NCBI RefSeq assembly: GCF_001983935.1
Contig: NZ_CP017641.1
Span: 5,613,001 to 5,677,000 of the forward strand
DNA from: Fuerstiella marisgermanici
Lineage (GTDB): Bacteria > Planctomycetota > Planctomycetia > Planctomycetales > Planctomycetaceae
DNA: 64,000 nt
Reading direction: 5' to 3'
A program made the position numbers and the translations under genes. Below the pieces are notes generated by a model. It was not told the origin of the DNA and made no database searches. It worked only from the letters and a program-made list of their open reading frames with translations. Below, piece by piece: positions 20,136 through 27,479 of this stretch (position 1 is its first letter; each line of letters begins with the position of its first letter).

Positions 20136-23100
20136 CTACGCTTGTGCCAACCAGCGTTGCAGTGGCTGTTCGATTTGATTGTCGGAATCGAATCGCATTA
20201 ACACGGCGTCGCGATTGTCTTTCCCCGGCTTCACTTCCTGCTTCACCCCGAAGTCGGCGATTGCCCCAATCGTCACCGTGCCATTGGGCACGTGCAGGAC
20301 AAGATCCACACCGTCTTTACGTTTGGTATGAAGTTCGGCAGCGGGTTTGCCATTGCTGTCCTTCCAGGTGATCTTGCTTTTCGCACTGAAGTCCGGTTCG
20401 CAGTTTGCGAATGACTTCTCCACGATCGGCAGTAGCTTTTCCACCGTCTTGAAGTCCCAGGTCGGTTTCTTCGGCAGCCCTTTTTTCATCAGGTGCCACT
20501 TGCGGCCCAACTGCTTCCACGGAGTCAGGTCGGCGGGATTCGCTTTTTCTTTCTTCGCCTGTAGCAGGTGACCTTCCACGGCCTGTTCTAGGAACTGTCT
20601 AAACTGAGGCGTCTCGACCTCAGCTTTGTTCCAGATTTTGATCGTGACTTCCTGCCACGGTGACTTCAGATTGCGTACAGAAACGCGTTCCGATTGGGTG
20701 TAGTAGTGGATGTCTTCGACGTCATCGATTGGTGTGAGGTTCAGTGACGCGTCCAAAGACCTGGCATCGAACGTCCCTTTCTTGACTCGAAAGCACAGCA
20801 CCAAAACCCACGCGTGGCCAGTGCGAGCATGCAGCAGCCAGCCGAGACCTCCCTTGGCTTTTACTTCGACAGTGGAACGGTGATTCCAATTAACTGGTGC
20901 CAACCGCTTGTTCTTTGCCAGTTGATCAATCACGAACTGTAGAGCCTCCCCGTCCCACTGACAGCGTTTACCATCGTGGCTGAGACATTCTTTCGTGTGC
21001 CACTTCTGCCCCTCCGCTTCCCACGGCAAAGCGGCCGACTTTCCGAGCTGAGCTACGCTAACGTCGCCCGCCTGCTTCTTTGACGCTTCTTTCACGTCAA
21101 ACACTTTGATGGTGCCTCGCGTCCCGTCAGTCAGCACCGGGCCAAGCAGCTTGCCGGTCCACGATTGTAGGTTCCGGCGGTCCGACGGAACCTCGTCTGC
21201 AGATTGCCCCTTCTTTGAACGGCCGGAGCGACCCACAGTAGCGGCCTTCGATCCGTTCGCCGCTGCGGGTGCCGTCGAGCCGCCGGCACCTGCCACATCC
21301 TCCGGCGTGCCTTCCGCCACAATCATCCCGCCGCCGGCCCCTGCTTCCGGACCGATATCCACAATCCAGTCTGCCGTCTTGATCACGTCAAGGTTGTGTT
21401 CAATCACGACTACTGTGTTGCCCTGTTCGACCAAACTGTTCAGCACGGCCAGCAGTTTCGCAATATCATCAAAGTGCAAACCGGTGGTTGGTTCGTCCAG
21501 CAGATAGAGAGACCTTCCCTGGTTTGGCTTCGCCAGTTCGGCCGCCAGTTTAATGCGCTGAGCTTCACCGCCGGACAAAGTCGGAGCCGACTGGCCCAAC
21601 GTTAGGTATCCCAGGCCGATCGCATTCAAAGTCGCCAGCGGAGCACGAATCTTTGGCACATTCGAAAACACTTCCAGCGCTTTTTCCACCGGCATGTCGA
21701 GCACGTCGGCGATGCTGTGGCCATTGAACTTCACGTTTAGAGTTTCATCGTTGTATCGACGGCCCTGGCACGTTGTACATTCCACCCACACGTCGGGCAG
21801 GAAGTGCATCTCGATCTTCTGCTGCCCCATGCCTTCACAATCGTCGCAGCGCCCGCCAGCTCGATTAAAACTAAATCGCCCCGGCCCGAAGCCTCGCACT
21901 TTCGCTTCCGGCATTCTAGTAAACAGATCACGAATATGGTCGAACAAGCCAGTGTACGTGGCAGGATTCGATGCTGGAGTATTCCCGATCGGGTTCTGAT
22001 CGACGATCACAATTTTGGAAAGATGCTCGATGCCCAGCAACTCGCGATGTGGCCCCGGCGCATCGGTGTTCAGGTTTAACTTGCGAGCCACCGCCGGAGC
22101 GAGAGTATTCATGATCAGAGAACTCTTTCCACTACCGCTCACGCCGGTGATGCAGGTGAACGTGCCCAAGGGAATATTCAGGTCTACGCTCCGAAGGTTA
22201 TGCTGCGTCGCGCCGTGCAGTGACAGCCAATGCAGGCCTCGCTCGCCCGACAGCATCTGCGGCGCTGGGTCTTTCTTCTTAGCCTGTTTCCTTCGTTTCG
22301 TATCCGCGGCTTTCGATCCATTTGCCGCTGCGGGTGCCGCCGGGCCGCCAGCACTAATAGATTCCATCCGGCGTACTTCCGGAACCGGAATCCCCTGCTC
22401 GCCACTGAGATATCCGCCCGTCAGTGACTTCTTCGCCTGTCGGCCCAACTGCTTCGGCGTTCCTTCTGCCACCACGTTGCCCCCAAGCCGTCCGGCTCCA
22501 GGCCCGAAGTCAAACAACCGATCAGCCGCCTCCAGTACCTCACGATCGTGCTCCACCAGCAGCACCGTATTGCCAAGATCGCGGAGACGCTTCAGCGCTG
22601 CCAGCAGTCGGCCGTTGTCACGCGGATGCAAACCAATTGTCGGTTCGTCCAGAACGTATAGCACTCCGGTCAGCGACCGACCGACCTGTCCAGCCAGGCG
22701 AATACGTTGAGATTCTCCGCCGGACAATGTCGGCATCGAACGATTCATCGTCAGGTAGTCCAGCCCAACATCGACAAGGAACGTCAACCGGTGCACTGAT
22801 TCGTTAAGCAAGTCTCCGGCAATTTGTTTCTGAGCTTTCGTGAGCTTCAACGACTTCAGAAACTCCAGTGCTTTGGCCAGCGGCATCTTGCAAAGCTGTG
22901 GAAGAGTCGTGTGCTTCAACTGCACGGCAGCGGTGAGTTCCTGCAGGCGAGTTCCGTTGCACACACTGCAGTCCTTCTCGCCCGCCATCTCCAGCAGCGA
23001 ACGGCGATGTGAGAACGACAACCGTGCTGCCAGTTCGATTGTGGGAAACAGCCCTCGGTAACGAAACTGCAGCCCTCGACTGCCCGACGGAACTTCTGGC

Positions 23101-26100
23101 GCAGATTCACCCTCTTCAGTCCGCATAACTGAATTCGTATCATCCGCCTTTAATTTACTTGCCGGTGCGGGTGCCGCCGGGCCGTCGGCATCTACTTTGA
23201 TCCAGCGATCTTCATTCCCGTACAAAATCACTCGCTGCTGTTCGGGCGTCAGCAGATACCATGGCTCGTCCAACGGGATCGCGAATTCTTTTCCGATCGC
23301 CTGCAGCAACATTCCAAAGGCCGCATTCGTCTGCGGATTGGGCCATGCGCCGATCGCTCCGTCCCACAATGAACGCTCTGGACTCGTAACCAGCAGCGAC
23401 TGATTCGCGCCGTACTCCGTCCCCAGCCCTTCGCACGACCAACACCAACCCAACGGACTATTGAAGCTGAATTGCTGAGGCGTCGGGTGGTCGTAGCTGT
23501 AGCCGCAATCCAGACATGACAGGTGCAAACTGAAGACGTGGTCCTCCCACTGAGCCTCATCAGTGGCGGTGTCGGCCACGACGACTCGAATCACGCCCTT
23601 GCCAACATCCAACGCCGCTTCGACAGAATCCGTGATGCGACCGCGTTGTTTGGAATCCACAACGATGCGGTCCACCACAACTTCGACTTCGTGTTCCCGA
23701 CGGTGATCGATGTCCGGTGGTGATTCGAGACTGTGCGTCACTCCGTCAACTCGGACTCGAGCAAATCCATTCTTCTGCAAACGCTCAAACGCAGCTTCGT
23801 AGGGTGTTTGCCGATCGACAGTGATCGGAGCCAGCAACATGGCTCGAACAGATCCAGCGTTCTTCCGTGATTTCCGTTTTCCGTCCTTGTCCTTTCCTCC
23901 AAGCCGCAGAACCGCCTCCACAATCTCATCCGTGGTTTGCTTCGTGGCTTCTTTGCCGCATGTTGGGCAATGCACGACTCCCAGTCGAGCGTACAGCACT
24001 CGCAGGTAGTCGTAGATTTCCGTCACGGTGCCAACGGTTGAACGCGGAGTCGCGCCGACGGTTTTCTGTTCGATGGCGATCGCAGGACTCAATCCTTGAA
24101 TGCTGTCGACTCGCGGTTTTGGCATCTGCCCCAGAAACTGCCGAGCATACGCCGACAGGCTTTCCACGTAGCGCCGCTGTCCTTCCGCATACAGCGTGTC
24201 CATTGCCAGAGATGTCTTGCCACTGCCGCTGGGGCCACAGAAGACACTCATTTCCCCGCGCGGAACTTCCATGTCAATGTGTTGCAAATTGTGTTGAGAG
24301 GCTCCGGAAATTTGAATGCGTTTGCTGAAGATGAACGGATCAGTCTGTGGTCCCGCCGCTTTATTGTTCTTCGCTGCGCCTTTCAGCGGTTTTAAGCCGA
24401 GCACCGATCGCAGCGCGGTCCCCGTATGAGACTTCCGACACCGAGCGACTTCTTCGGGAGTCCCCTCGACCACAATTTCGCCGCCGCCCGCTCCGCCTTC
24501 CGGCCCGATGTCGATCACCCAGTCGGCCGTTTTGATCACGTCCAGATTGTGTTCGACGACGATTACCGTGTTGCCTCGATCGACAAACCCGTGCAGTACT
24601 TCCAACAGCTTGTGGACGTCTGCGAAATGCAACCCCGTGGTCGGTTCATCCAACAGGTACAACGTCTGACCGGTGGAACGTTTGCCCAGTTCGCGAGCCA
24701 GCTTGATACGCTGAGCCTCCCCGCCGGACAGTGTGGGCGATGGCTGGCCAAGCTGCATGTAGTCCAGGCCCACATCCACCAGCGTCTGCAGAAGGTTGCG
24801 AATCTTCGGCACGTTTTCGAACAGTTCCAAAGCGTCCCGAATTTCCATATTCAGAATTTCGGCAACGCTATGATCCTTGTACTTCACTTCCAAAGTTTCA
24901 TGGCTGAAGCGGCGGCCTTCACAAACATCGCACGGCACCCAGATGTCGGCCAGAAAATCCATTTCCAGCTTGGTCGCCCCATGCCCTTCGCACGCTTCGC
25001 AGCGCCCGCCCGCCACATTAAAACTGAATCGCCCCGGCTTGTACCCTCGCATTTTTGACTGAGGCAACGCCGTGAACAATTTGCGAATTTCGTCAAACAC
25101 CTTCACATACGTAGCCGGGTTACTGCGCGGTGTTCGCCCGATCGGCGACTGATCGATGTCGATGGCTTTGTCGATTTTCGTCAGCCCATTGATGCGATCA
25201 TGCTTGCCCGGTTCGCCCTTTCCTTTGTTGACGTCGCGGTTTAGCACCTGCCACAAAATATCGTTGGTAATGGAACTCTTACCGCTTCCGCTGACACCAG
25301 TGACGCAGATGAAGCGACCGAGCGGAAAGGAAACATCAATGCCTTTAAGATTGTTATGGCGAGCGTTCTTAACCGTGATGGAGTGTTTTGCGTTTGAGAC
25401 CGACGAGCCGTTAGCCGCCGATTCTGTTTTGTCCTGAGACCGACTGGTAGCGCTTTGCCGCGCAGTTGCTTTCATGCCTCGACGCGTTTCGGGCACTTCA
25501 ATTTGTAGTCGGCCGCTCAGGTATTGCCCGGTCAGACTGCGTTTGTTTTTCAGCAGATCCTTGACACTGCCTTCCACCACCAACTCGCCACCGCGCACTC
25601 CAGGTCCCGGCCCGAAGTCCACCACATGATCTGCTGCACGCATGGTTTCTTCGTCGTGTTCGACCACGATCACCGTGTTGCCCTGATCTCGCAGGTGCTG
25701 CAGACTTTCCAGCAACATCACATTGTCGCGCGGATGCAGGCCGATCGACGGTTCGTCCAGAATATAGACGACGCCCACCAAGCCACAGCCGATTTGGCCG
25801 GCCAGGCGGATTCGCTGAGACTCTCCACCAGACAGCGTTGGAGCGGAACGTTCCAGCGAGAGATAGTGTAGCCCACACTGCAGCAGAAAACCTAAACGGC
25901 CGCGAATCTCCTTCAATGCTTCTTCGGCGATCATCTGCTGCGTGGCATCCAGCTTAAGCGAACCAAAGAACTCGGACGCCTCTTCAATACTGAGAGCACA
26001 CACCTGCGGCAGGCTGAGTTCCAACGGGCGCTTGCCATTGCGCGCGCTGTTGGACGTTAGTTTCACATGCCGAGCCTGCTTGTTCAGCCGTTCTCCTTCA

Positions 26101-27479
26101 CACGAAGGGCACGGCATCACTTCCAGGTGCTTTTCCATCGCTCGACGCAGCATCGGATTCTTGACGGAACGGTATTGCTCCAGAAGCCGATTCACCCAGC
26201 CTTCCCACGTACCTCCGTGCTTGTAAACTCCGCCCCGAGTCTTCCAGCTAAACGTGATGTGCTTGTCGCCCGTTCCGTACAGCCACAAATGCTGAGCCTG
26301 CTCAGGCAGGTCCTTCCACTTGCTCTTCAACAGAGTCCCCGCGTCCATGCCGACGATCTTTTCGATCGCTTCCGCGGCGCTGACCAGAAAGTGCCGAGGC
26401 CACCGGCCGATCTTCTTGAGCGATTTCAGAAACAGCAGCGCTCCGTTTTGAATCGATTTCTTCTCGTCAACAACGACGCTCGACTGAGCAAACCCGTGCC
26501 GCATGCCCAGGCCATGACAGTCCATGCACATACCCAGCGGACTGTTGAAGCTGAACAACTGAGGCGACGGCGGCTCGTAACTCATCCCACTTTCGGCACA
26601 AGCGTAGTGGGCGCTGTAGAGGCGATCAGCCTGCAGGTCTCCGCCGCCTGGCGGGACCTTAGCTATAGATTTAGTCTTCTTCGACGACTTCACTGGATTC
26701 GTAGCATCAGCTTTCGATTGGCCTGCCGCTGCGGGTGCCGTCGGGCTGCCGGCACCTAATTCGGGCGCACAAATCAGCCGCCCGTCTCCCAGCTTAAGCG
26801 CGGCTTCCACTGTTTCCGCCAAGCGACTCCGGTTGCCCGGTCCGGCCACAAGCCGGTCGATCACCACTTCAATGGTATGCTTGTGGTGCCGGCGCAACTT
26901 CAAATCGTCATTCAGGGAGACGACGTCGCCGTCAACTCGCGCTCGCAGGTGGCCTCGTTTCAGCAGGTCTTCGAACAGATCTTTGAATTCGCCCTTCTGG
27001 TTCTGGACGATGGGAGCCAGAATTGAATAGCGAGTTCCTTCCGGCAGCGATGCGATGCTTTCGATAATCGAATCGGTTGATTGAGCCTTGATCGGCTTGC
27101 CAGAAACATAGCAGTAGCCCTGGCCAACTCGAGCAAATAGGACTCGCAGGTAGTCGAATATTTCCGTGATCGTGCCGACGGTACTTCGCGGATTCCGGCT
27201 GGTCGATTTCTGTTGAATGGAAATCGACGGAGCCAGTCCGGAAATCGAATCTACGTTCGGCTTGGGCAACTGGCCGAGAAACTGTCGCGCATAGGTGGAC
27301 AAGGATTCGACGTAGCGGCGTTGGCCTTCTGCGTACAGCGTGTCGAATGCCAGTGAACTTTTCCCGGACCCGGACACGCCGGTCATCACGATCAGTTTAT
27401 TGCGGGGCAGCGAAAGGCTGACGTTCTGCAGATTGTGTTCGCGAGCTCCGCGAATGACGATTTCGGTTTCGGGCATCAA
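20136..27479 (-). CDS. uvrA: Tandem UvrA excinuclease subunit with C-terminal extension
   Basis: A 2447-residue protein holding two full UvrA modules, so four ABC ATPase heads. Walker A loops lie near residues 40 ([10 protein letters not shown]), 730, 1085 ([10 protein letters not shown]) and 1780. The signatures alternate [12 protein letters not shown] and [12 protein letters not shown]. UvrA finds bulky DNA lesions with UvrB in nucleotide excision repair; it usually works as a dimer of about 940 residues, and this chain could be a covalent dimer. The first zinc site is damaged in module 1 (CAESG, and CYVSG where module 2 has CPTCG) but intact in module 2 (CLDCG). C-terminal zinc motifs remain in both ([16 protein letters not shown]). 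Residues after about 2105 form an extension I do not recognise. Four 126-bp in-frame repeats interrupt it. ATG 27479 or 27476. Confidence 0.92.
21165..21290 (-). repeat. 126-bp in-frame palindromic element, copy 4
   Basis: It encodes about residues 2063-2105, after the second UvrA module and before the C-terminal extension. Both ends are near-perfect palindromes of related sequence: GGTTCCGGCGGTCCGACGG plus AACC (21170-21192), and its look-alike at 21268-21290 with GGTGCCG and CCGGCACC arms. The centre is variable. Confidence 0.8.
22230..22355 (-). repeat. 126-bp in-frame palindromic element, copy 3
   Basis: It encodes about residues 1708-1750, in the linker between the two ATPase heads of the second UvrA module. 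The translated form starts [18 protein letters not shown] and ends near SGERGLHW. Boundaries match the other copies to the base. Confidence 0.8.
23067..23192 (-). repeat. 126-bp in-frame palindromic element, copy 2
   Basis: It encodes about residues 1429-1471, within a surface loop of module 2 after the [11 protein letters not shown] segment. The translated form contains [16 protein letters not shown] and ends PSGSRGLQ. This copy is the most diverged in the right arm but has the same length and ends. Confidence 0.78.
26631..26756 (-). repeat. 126-bp in-frame palindromic element, copy 1
   Basis: It encodes about residues 241-283, just before the first zinc site of module 1. The translated form contains [17 protein letters not shown] and ends GGGDLQ. 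The corresponding place in module 2 has no insertion, so the copy arrived after the module duplication or was lost from one side. Confidence 0.8.

Follow-up and report, generated by a model that had tools for sequence, protein, structure and literature searches.

The window analysed here, 64,000 nucleotides of Fuerstiella marisgermanici DNA (contig NZ_CP017641.1, positions 5,613,001 to 5,677,000), contains a uvrA gene that encodes a tandem double UvrA and hosts four segments of 126 bp each, all sharing the same frame and orientation within the 2447-aa open reading frame, as the initial annotation had described (Table 1). We modelled the two UvrA halves separately with AlphaFold2 from 33-sequence alignments, and the four longest stretches with pLDDT below 50 are the four inserts, in agreement with the earlier placement of the copies in loops or linkers. 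The same genome (G000; a single contig of 8,920,478 bp) has a second, single UvrA-like ORF of 1011 aa at G000:C1:3272609-3274171, so that UvrA function might be partly redundant.

Table 1. The host gene and its four inserts, in window coordinates
Feature	Position	Strand	Remarks
uvrA, tandem double UvrA, 2447 aa, insert host	20136..27479	-	NF001503 UvrA, 2528.9 bits; PF17760 and PF17755 twice each
Insert 4 (first in gene order), aa 242-283, REPIN	26631..26756	-	5' palindrome kept, 3' eroded; REP match 26735-26759; pLDDT <50 at aa 242-282
Insert 3, aa 1430-1471, REPIN	23067..23192	-	5' palindrome with GTAG tag; REP match 23171-23195; pLDDT <50 at aa 1433-1468
Insert 2, aa 1709-1750, most eroded REPIN	22230..22355	-	missed by the 3-mismatch REP pattern; BLAST kinship to the other copies; pLDDT <50 at aa 1711-1747
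Insert 1 (last in gene order), aa 2064-2105, best-kept REPIN	21165..21290	-	arms intact, 21167-21191 and 21269-21293; two REP matches; fold z -2.59; pLDDT <50 at aa 2070-2101

The four inserts are related and not near-identical, with pairwise ungapped identities of 60-67% that are unevenly distributed along their length (5' arm, 0.85-0.92; spacer, 0.49-0.61; 3' arm, 0.58-0.73). In each of the six insert pairs, no more than 1 in 2000 codon shuffles reached the in-register spacer identity. A palindrome of about 23 bp had been proposed at each end of every copy. This holds for insert 1, in which two clean palindromes delimit a full REPIN of 127 bp (21167-21293); in the other three copies the 3' palindrome is eroded. 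The pair GGTTCCGG..CGGAACC and GGTGCCGG..CGGCACC, previously assigned to insert 4, in fact belongs to insert 1. The GTAG tag has decayed on the 5' side in three of the four copies. When folded as ssDNA and compared with shuffles, the segments gave z scores of -2.59, +1.16 (the copy at 22230), -2.34 and -2.48, meaning that three fold better than their shuffles and the copy at 22230 does not; one extragenic REPIN reached -6.73.

The REP consensus GTAGGTKCCGGCRGYCCGACGGMAC, which matches the insert ends, occurs 22 times in the genome at up to three mismatches versus 0 times in the reversed control. Four of these matches fall in three of the uvrA copies, and the remaining 18 lie in 12 places outside the gene. 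Matches pair up as inverted doublets around a spacer and such doublets are able to fold, which bears out the earlier view of paired REPs around a variable centre; seven extragenic doublets that we compared measure 130-167 bp, against 126 bp for the uvrA copies. Six of the seven pair a GGTG arm with a GGTT arm in opposite orientation, as insert 1 does, and the seventh has GGTA and GGTC. At the 3-mismatch pattern, none of the 12 places outside uvrA lies within a verifiable gene, the overlapping ORFs being putative ones of 115-182 aa or an upstream extension of cas1. Because insert 2 escapes this pattern, equally eroded copies in other genes could escape it too. The proposal of a mobile element that tolerates or prefers coding DNA is supported as regards a mobile REPIN, and not as regards a general preference for coding DNA, given 0 of 12 other places in a verified gene.

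The search for a RAYT gene suggested by the initial annotation was also successful. The gene at G000:C1:6489904-6490506 scores above the cut-off for both NF047646 (88.5 bits, cut-off 80) and PF01797 (34.8, cut-off 23), and its profile match makes the product a transposase of the Y1 type. The same REPINs stand on both sides of it, one doublet stopping just upstream and another starting at the stop codon, where the GTAG of the 3' REPIN provides the TAG stop of the RAYT gene. In the whole genome NF047646 has eight matches, four of them exceeding the cut-off. As REPINs, the uvrA segments belong to a GTAG-class REP family with a linked RAYT, and by analogy with its family this RAYT would be the enzyme that mobilises them. 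The RAYT gene and its REPINs are situated within a type II CRISPR locus (L013, G000:C1:6486500-6494500), with RAYT between cas9 and cas1; the order is REPIN (G000:C1:6486443-6486591), cas9, REPIN, RAYT, REPIN, cas1, a small ORF that is probably cas2, and an apparent repeat array. A second REP family, GTAGGTCAGGCTNTGCCTGACG, has seven matches in the genome (G000:C1:2174927, 2175362, 7503368, 7503406, 7505174, 8358344 and 8366062), two of which are near another RAYT match at 2176503, and a weak RAYT-family match at G000:C1:4405754-4406101 adjoins leuS (4406370-4407728).

UvrA matches were present in 39 of 39 genomes searched, the host's own included, and 20 relatives with one double ORF of at least 2232 aa were fetched and aligned. 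In these relatives the four insert sites are occupied by linkers that differ in length and sequence. Comparison of each insert with the same-site linker of eight Fuerstiella relatives gave 32 pairs, four of them too short; 1 of the 28 tested had p<0.05, about what chance would give, and this single pair, with the G003 linker at site 1418, beat all 200 shuffles. Seven same-genus genomes together contain one REP match. The outcome named beforehand as speaking against a mobile element was that all close relatives carry the same four segments with ordinary protein-level conservation and that the genome has no further copies; we found same-genus relatives without the inserts and, in the host genome, the extragenic copies described above. 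The relatives' linkers are too divergent to define an exact empty site at which to look for the target-site duplication that, along with a cognate DDE transposase, marks MITEs; the transposase linked to the REPINs here is of the Y1 type. Ancestral duplication of UvrA was rejected as the source of the copies because relatives have the same double gene without inserts. The sites are length-variable in all relatives compared, as would be expected if the segments were ordinary disordered linkers whose DNA is alike by chance or composition. We give this reading next to no probability, since the arms match a genome-wide REP family that has no match in the reversed control and the spacer identity exceeds that of codon shuffles; conserved ordinary linkers are ruled out by the extragenic copies together with the absence of the inserts in congeners.

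How the four copies arose is addressed by their spacers. By local alignment, four of the six uvrA-uvrA spacer pairs are similar at p<=0.01 (pairs 1-3 and 1-4 are not significant), versus 0 of 28 uvrA-extragenic pairs at p<=0.02. That the uvrA spacers are alike and unlike the extragenic ones suggests one founder spreading inside the gene. Differences among the inserts are distributed over the codon positions as 99/74/103 (p=0.07); the third position shows no real excess and the second a mild deficit. These differences give no sign of strong selection on the peptide, and the second-position deficit (74) leaves room for what may be a weak constraint. Alternatively, the inserts could stem from four separate transpositions out of a REPIN subfamily that was compatible with coding DNA and has meanwhile disappeared elsewhere. 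The arm polarity matches that of the extragenic REPINs, and other genomes whose uvrA carries unrelated elements at several linkers attest that multiple insertions per gene happen; however, the inserts agree in length, frame, orientation and spacer, and the spacer is common to none of the 28 extragenic comparisons, so we think this origin improbable. The same pattern would result from separate insertions of one lost REPIN subfamily or from gene conversion from linker to linker. From the sequence comparisons, we infer that a single founder spread locally and that its copies drift almost neutrally as tolerated linkers.

To place the gene among its relatives, we assembled 83 planctomycete uvrA genes (80 loci, less 10 repeats of genomes already in the set and 8 that were incomplete or contained N, plus the 20 relatives and the window), a set that includes related MAGs and whose members are not independent. 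Linker pairs sharing DNA at 30 bits or more are 35-fold more frequent within genes (42/4437) than across genomes (98/364647), versus 2/44370 codon-shuffled pairs and 2/~26622 conserved-window pairs in the controls. DNA common to linkers at different sites was found in 18 of the 83 double-uvrA genes, and the elements are unrelated between lineages: L106, L129 and L146 carry GTAG doublets, G020 a CCCACGGG palindrome, L154 and L164 GCGAGCGGGGG doublets, and G008, G013, L146, L171 and L175 heptamer arrays whose arms are inverted. A scan of all 83 genes for intact GTAG..CTAC doublets returned three genes (L106, L129 and L146) versus 2 of 1660 codon-shuffled ones; it missed the Fuerstiella gene because the tags there have decayed. 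Several of the elements are repeated genome-wide (L146 element, 206 matches in G041; L129 element, 27 in G040; G020 element, about 29 places), and RAYT-family matches occurred in 9 of 9 genomes searched.

The 594 kb of uvrA contain 28 inverted repeats with a score of at least 15. Linkers account for 26 of these, and codon shuffling leaves 0. Other ORFs of the same loci have 11 in 635 kb, which makes uvrA 2.7-fold denser (p=0.0036), and at score 16 the density in uvrA linkers (0.26 per kb) is near that of intergenic DNA (0.37 per kb). Taking 30 genes each of infB and leuS, we counted 1 such repeat (score at least 15) in 88 kb of infB, a gene with a long variable N-terminal part, and 0 in 88 kb of leuS (p=0.0075 versus uvrA). 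At a score of at least 13, whole uvrA genes are not denser than infB and leuS together (48/594 kb versus 11/176 kb; 1.3-fold, p=0.54); the uvrA linkers are still above them, with 34 in 80 kb.

These densities bear on whether uvrA is actively favoured, either through targeted insertion or because beneficial linkers or mRNA hairpins lead to retention of the elements beyond mere tolerance. The scarcity of strong repeats in infB and leuS fits such a bias, as does the published recurrence of REPs in DNA-repair genes (PMC3733652, in the part of that article available to us); the equal whole-gene densities at the lower score do not. In Fuerstiella, 4 of 16 REP places (12 outside uvrA and 4 within) fall in one 7.3-kb gene, and the chance of finding three more there among the other 15 is about 3e-7 if insertions are independent and uniform, a value that overstates the case because local spread makes the four copies non-independent. 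Verified in-gene copies in three other genomes are again in uvrA. The G020 element has 2 of 16 examined places in uvrA, and four others overlap putative ORFs; the G040 REP has 27 matches, of which 24 were fetched and 22 judged, and the only in-gene ones are the two arms of one uvrA REPIN; and in G041, the L146 genome, 17 of the 206 matches to the REP GTAGGTCAGGCTCCGCCTGACG were examined, yielding one uvrA REPIN (two arms) and one putative ORF. These three genomes, like G008, were chosen for repeats in their uvrA, so they indicate where elements sit and not how often uvrA is struck. Against a bias toward uvrA, the G008 heptamer element sits in three linkers of uvrA, and the 17 other places looked at include one clear gene, leuS, besides several ambiguous ORFs. 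Its pattern gave 120 matches versus 94 in the reversed control, a high value expected of a tandem heptamer read backwards, and the G008 count was accordingly not used as evidence. The leuS in question, from another genus (L243, G008:C1:6352700-6356000), has in frame the same heptamer element as the uvrA of that genome. Since, in addition, no clear selection on the peptide is apparent and the palindromes are eroding, we judge it unlikely that uvrA is favoured in this sense.

The pattern suggests that mobile palindromes accumulate repeatedly in the linkers of uvrA, a sink for which tolerance, targeting and benefit are all possible causes. As a tentative and rather doubtful extension, planctomycete uvrA linkers might be a preferred landing or retention site beyond their permissiveness; the same few linkers would then have been invaded independently by at least four GTAG REPIN families (G000, L106, L129 and L146) and by several unrelated elements of palindromic or heptamer type, and nucleotide-excision repair and REPIN/RAYT systems might interact. 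The history that we favour is as follows. After the split from the sampled congeners, a REPIN would have entered a disordered uvrA linker in the present frame and orientation, in which it encodes a flexible, Ala/Pro/Gly/Lys-rich linker of 42 codons, its movement presumably being due to the RAYT at G000:C1:6489904-6490506 as the likely transposase. Copies of this founder may then have reached three further linkers of the same uvrA by local spread, and REPIN insertions into less permissive coding DNA would have been lost by selection. The inserts would now be nearly neutral spacers that drift as their palindromes erode, and the uvrA linkers of planctomycetes would repeatedly take up each lineage's own palindromic elements. 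We consider this explanation as a whole, from RAYT-linked GTAG REPINs and a single founder to uvrA linkers as a recurrent sink, to be likely.

The case shows selfish palindromes turning into protein sequence of a conserved repair enzyme; the donor family, the linked transposase gene, insert-free relatives and disordered landing sites can all be seen together. Our literature searches found no publication on the Fuerstiella uvrA inserts, nor any that counts uvrA linkers across lineages as a sink. With this recurrence in several lineages, a 2013 remark on REPs in DNA-repair genes becomes a pattern that can be counted and tested against controls. The initial annotation knew of no description of such an element for planctomycetes; GTAG REPs are, however, already on record for Planctomycetes, and several species carry them in frame within genes. 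Each uvrA of Opitutus terrae (ORFs 2709 and 3168) has two such insertions and Thioalkalivibrio uvrA has others, and many of the REP-bearing genes act in DNA synthesis and repair (PMC3733652, available part).

Like Rickettsia palindromic elements, as described in the available part of PMC3733652, the Fuerstiella REPINs are palindromic repeats translated in frame within a conserved protein; compared by description, the Rickettsia elements occupy many genes, whereas in Fuerstiella only uvrA is verified among 16 REP places, with the proviso that old copies may escape the pattern. As in the Pseudomonas REPIN/RAYT system (PMC3116915, available part), inverted REP doublets form a hairpin and a RAYT gene lies beside the same REPs. 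Unlike the Pseudomonas REPINs, which that text describes as extragenic, four copies here are translated, and the extragenic set is small (12 places). The closest parallel is with the GTAG REPs of Opitutus terrae and Thioalkalivibrio. Relative to the cases in the available part of PMC3733652, Fuerstiella differs in having four dimers in one double uvrA, one common spacer lineage, a different REP sequence and, outside uvrA, no verified copy within a gene at any of the places found. It shares with them the tag, the imperfect palindrome, inverted dimers, in-frame insertion in uvrA at more than one site, the association with RAYT and the provision by a REP of the TAG stop to a neighbouring ORF. The Fuerstiella uvrA REPINs are thus a rich new case of an already published kind, GTAG REPs in frame in uvrA.
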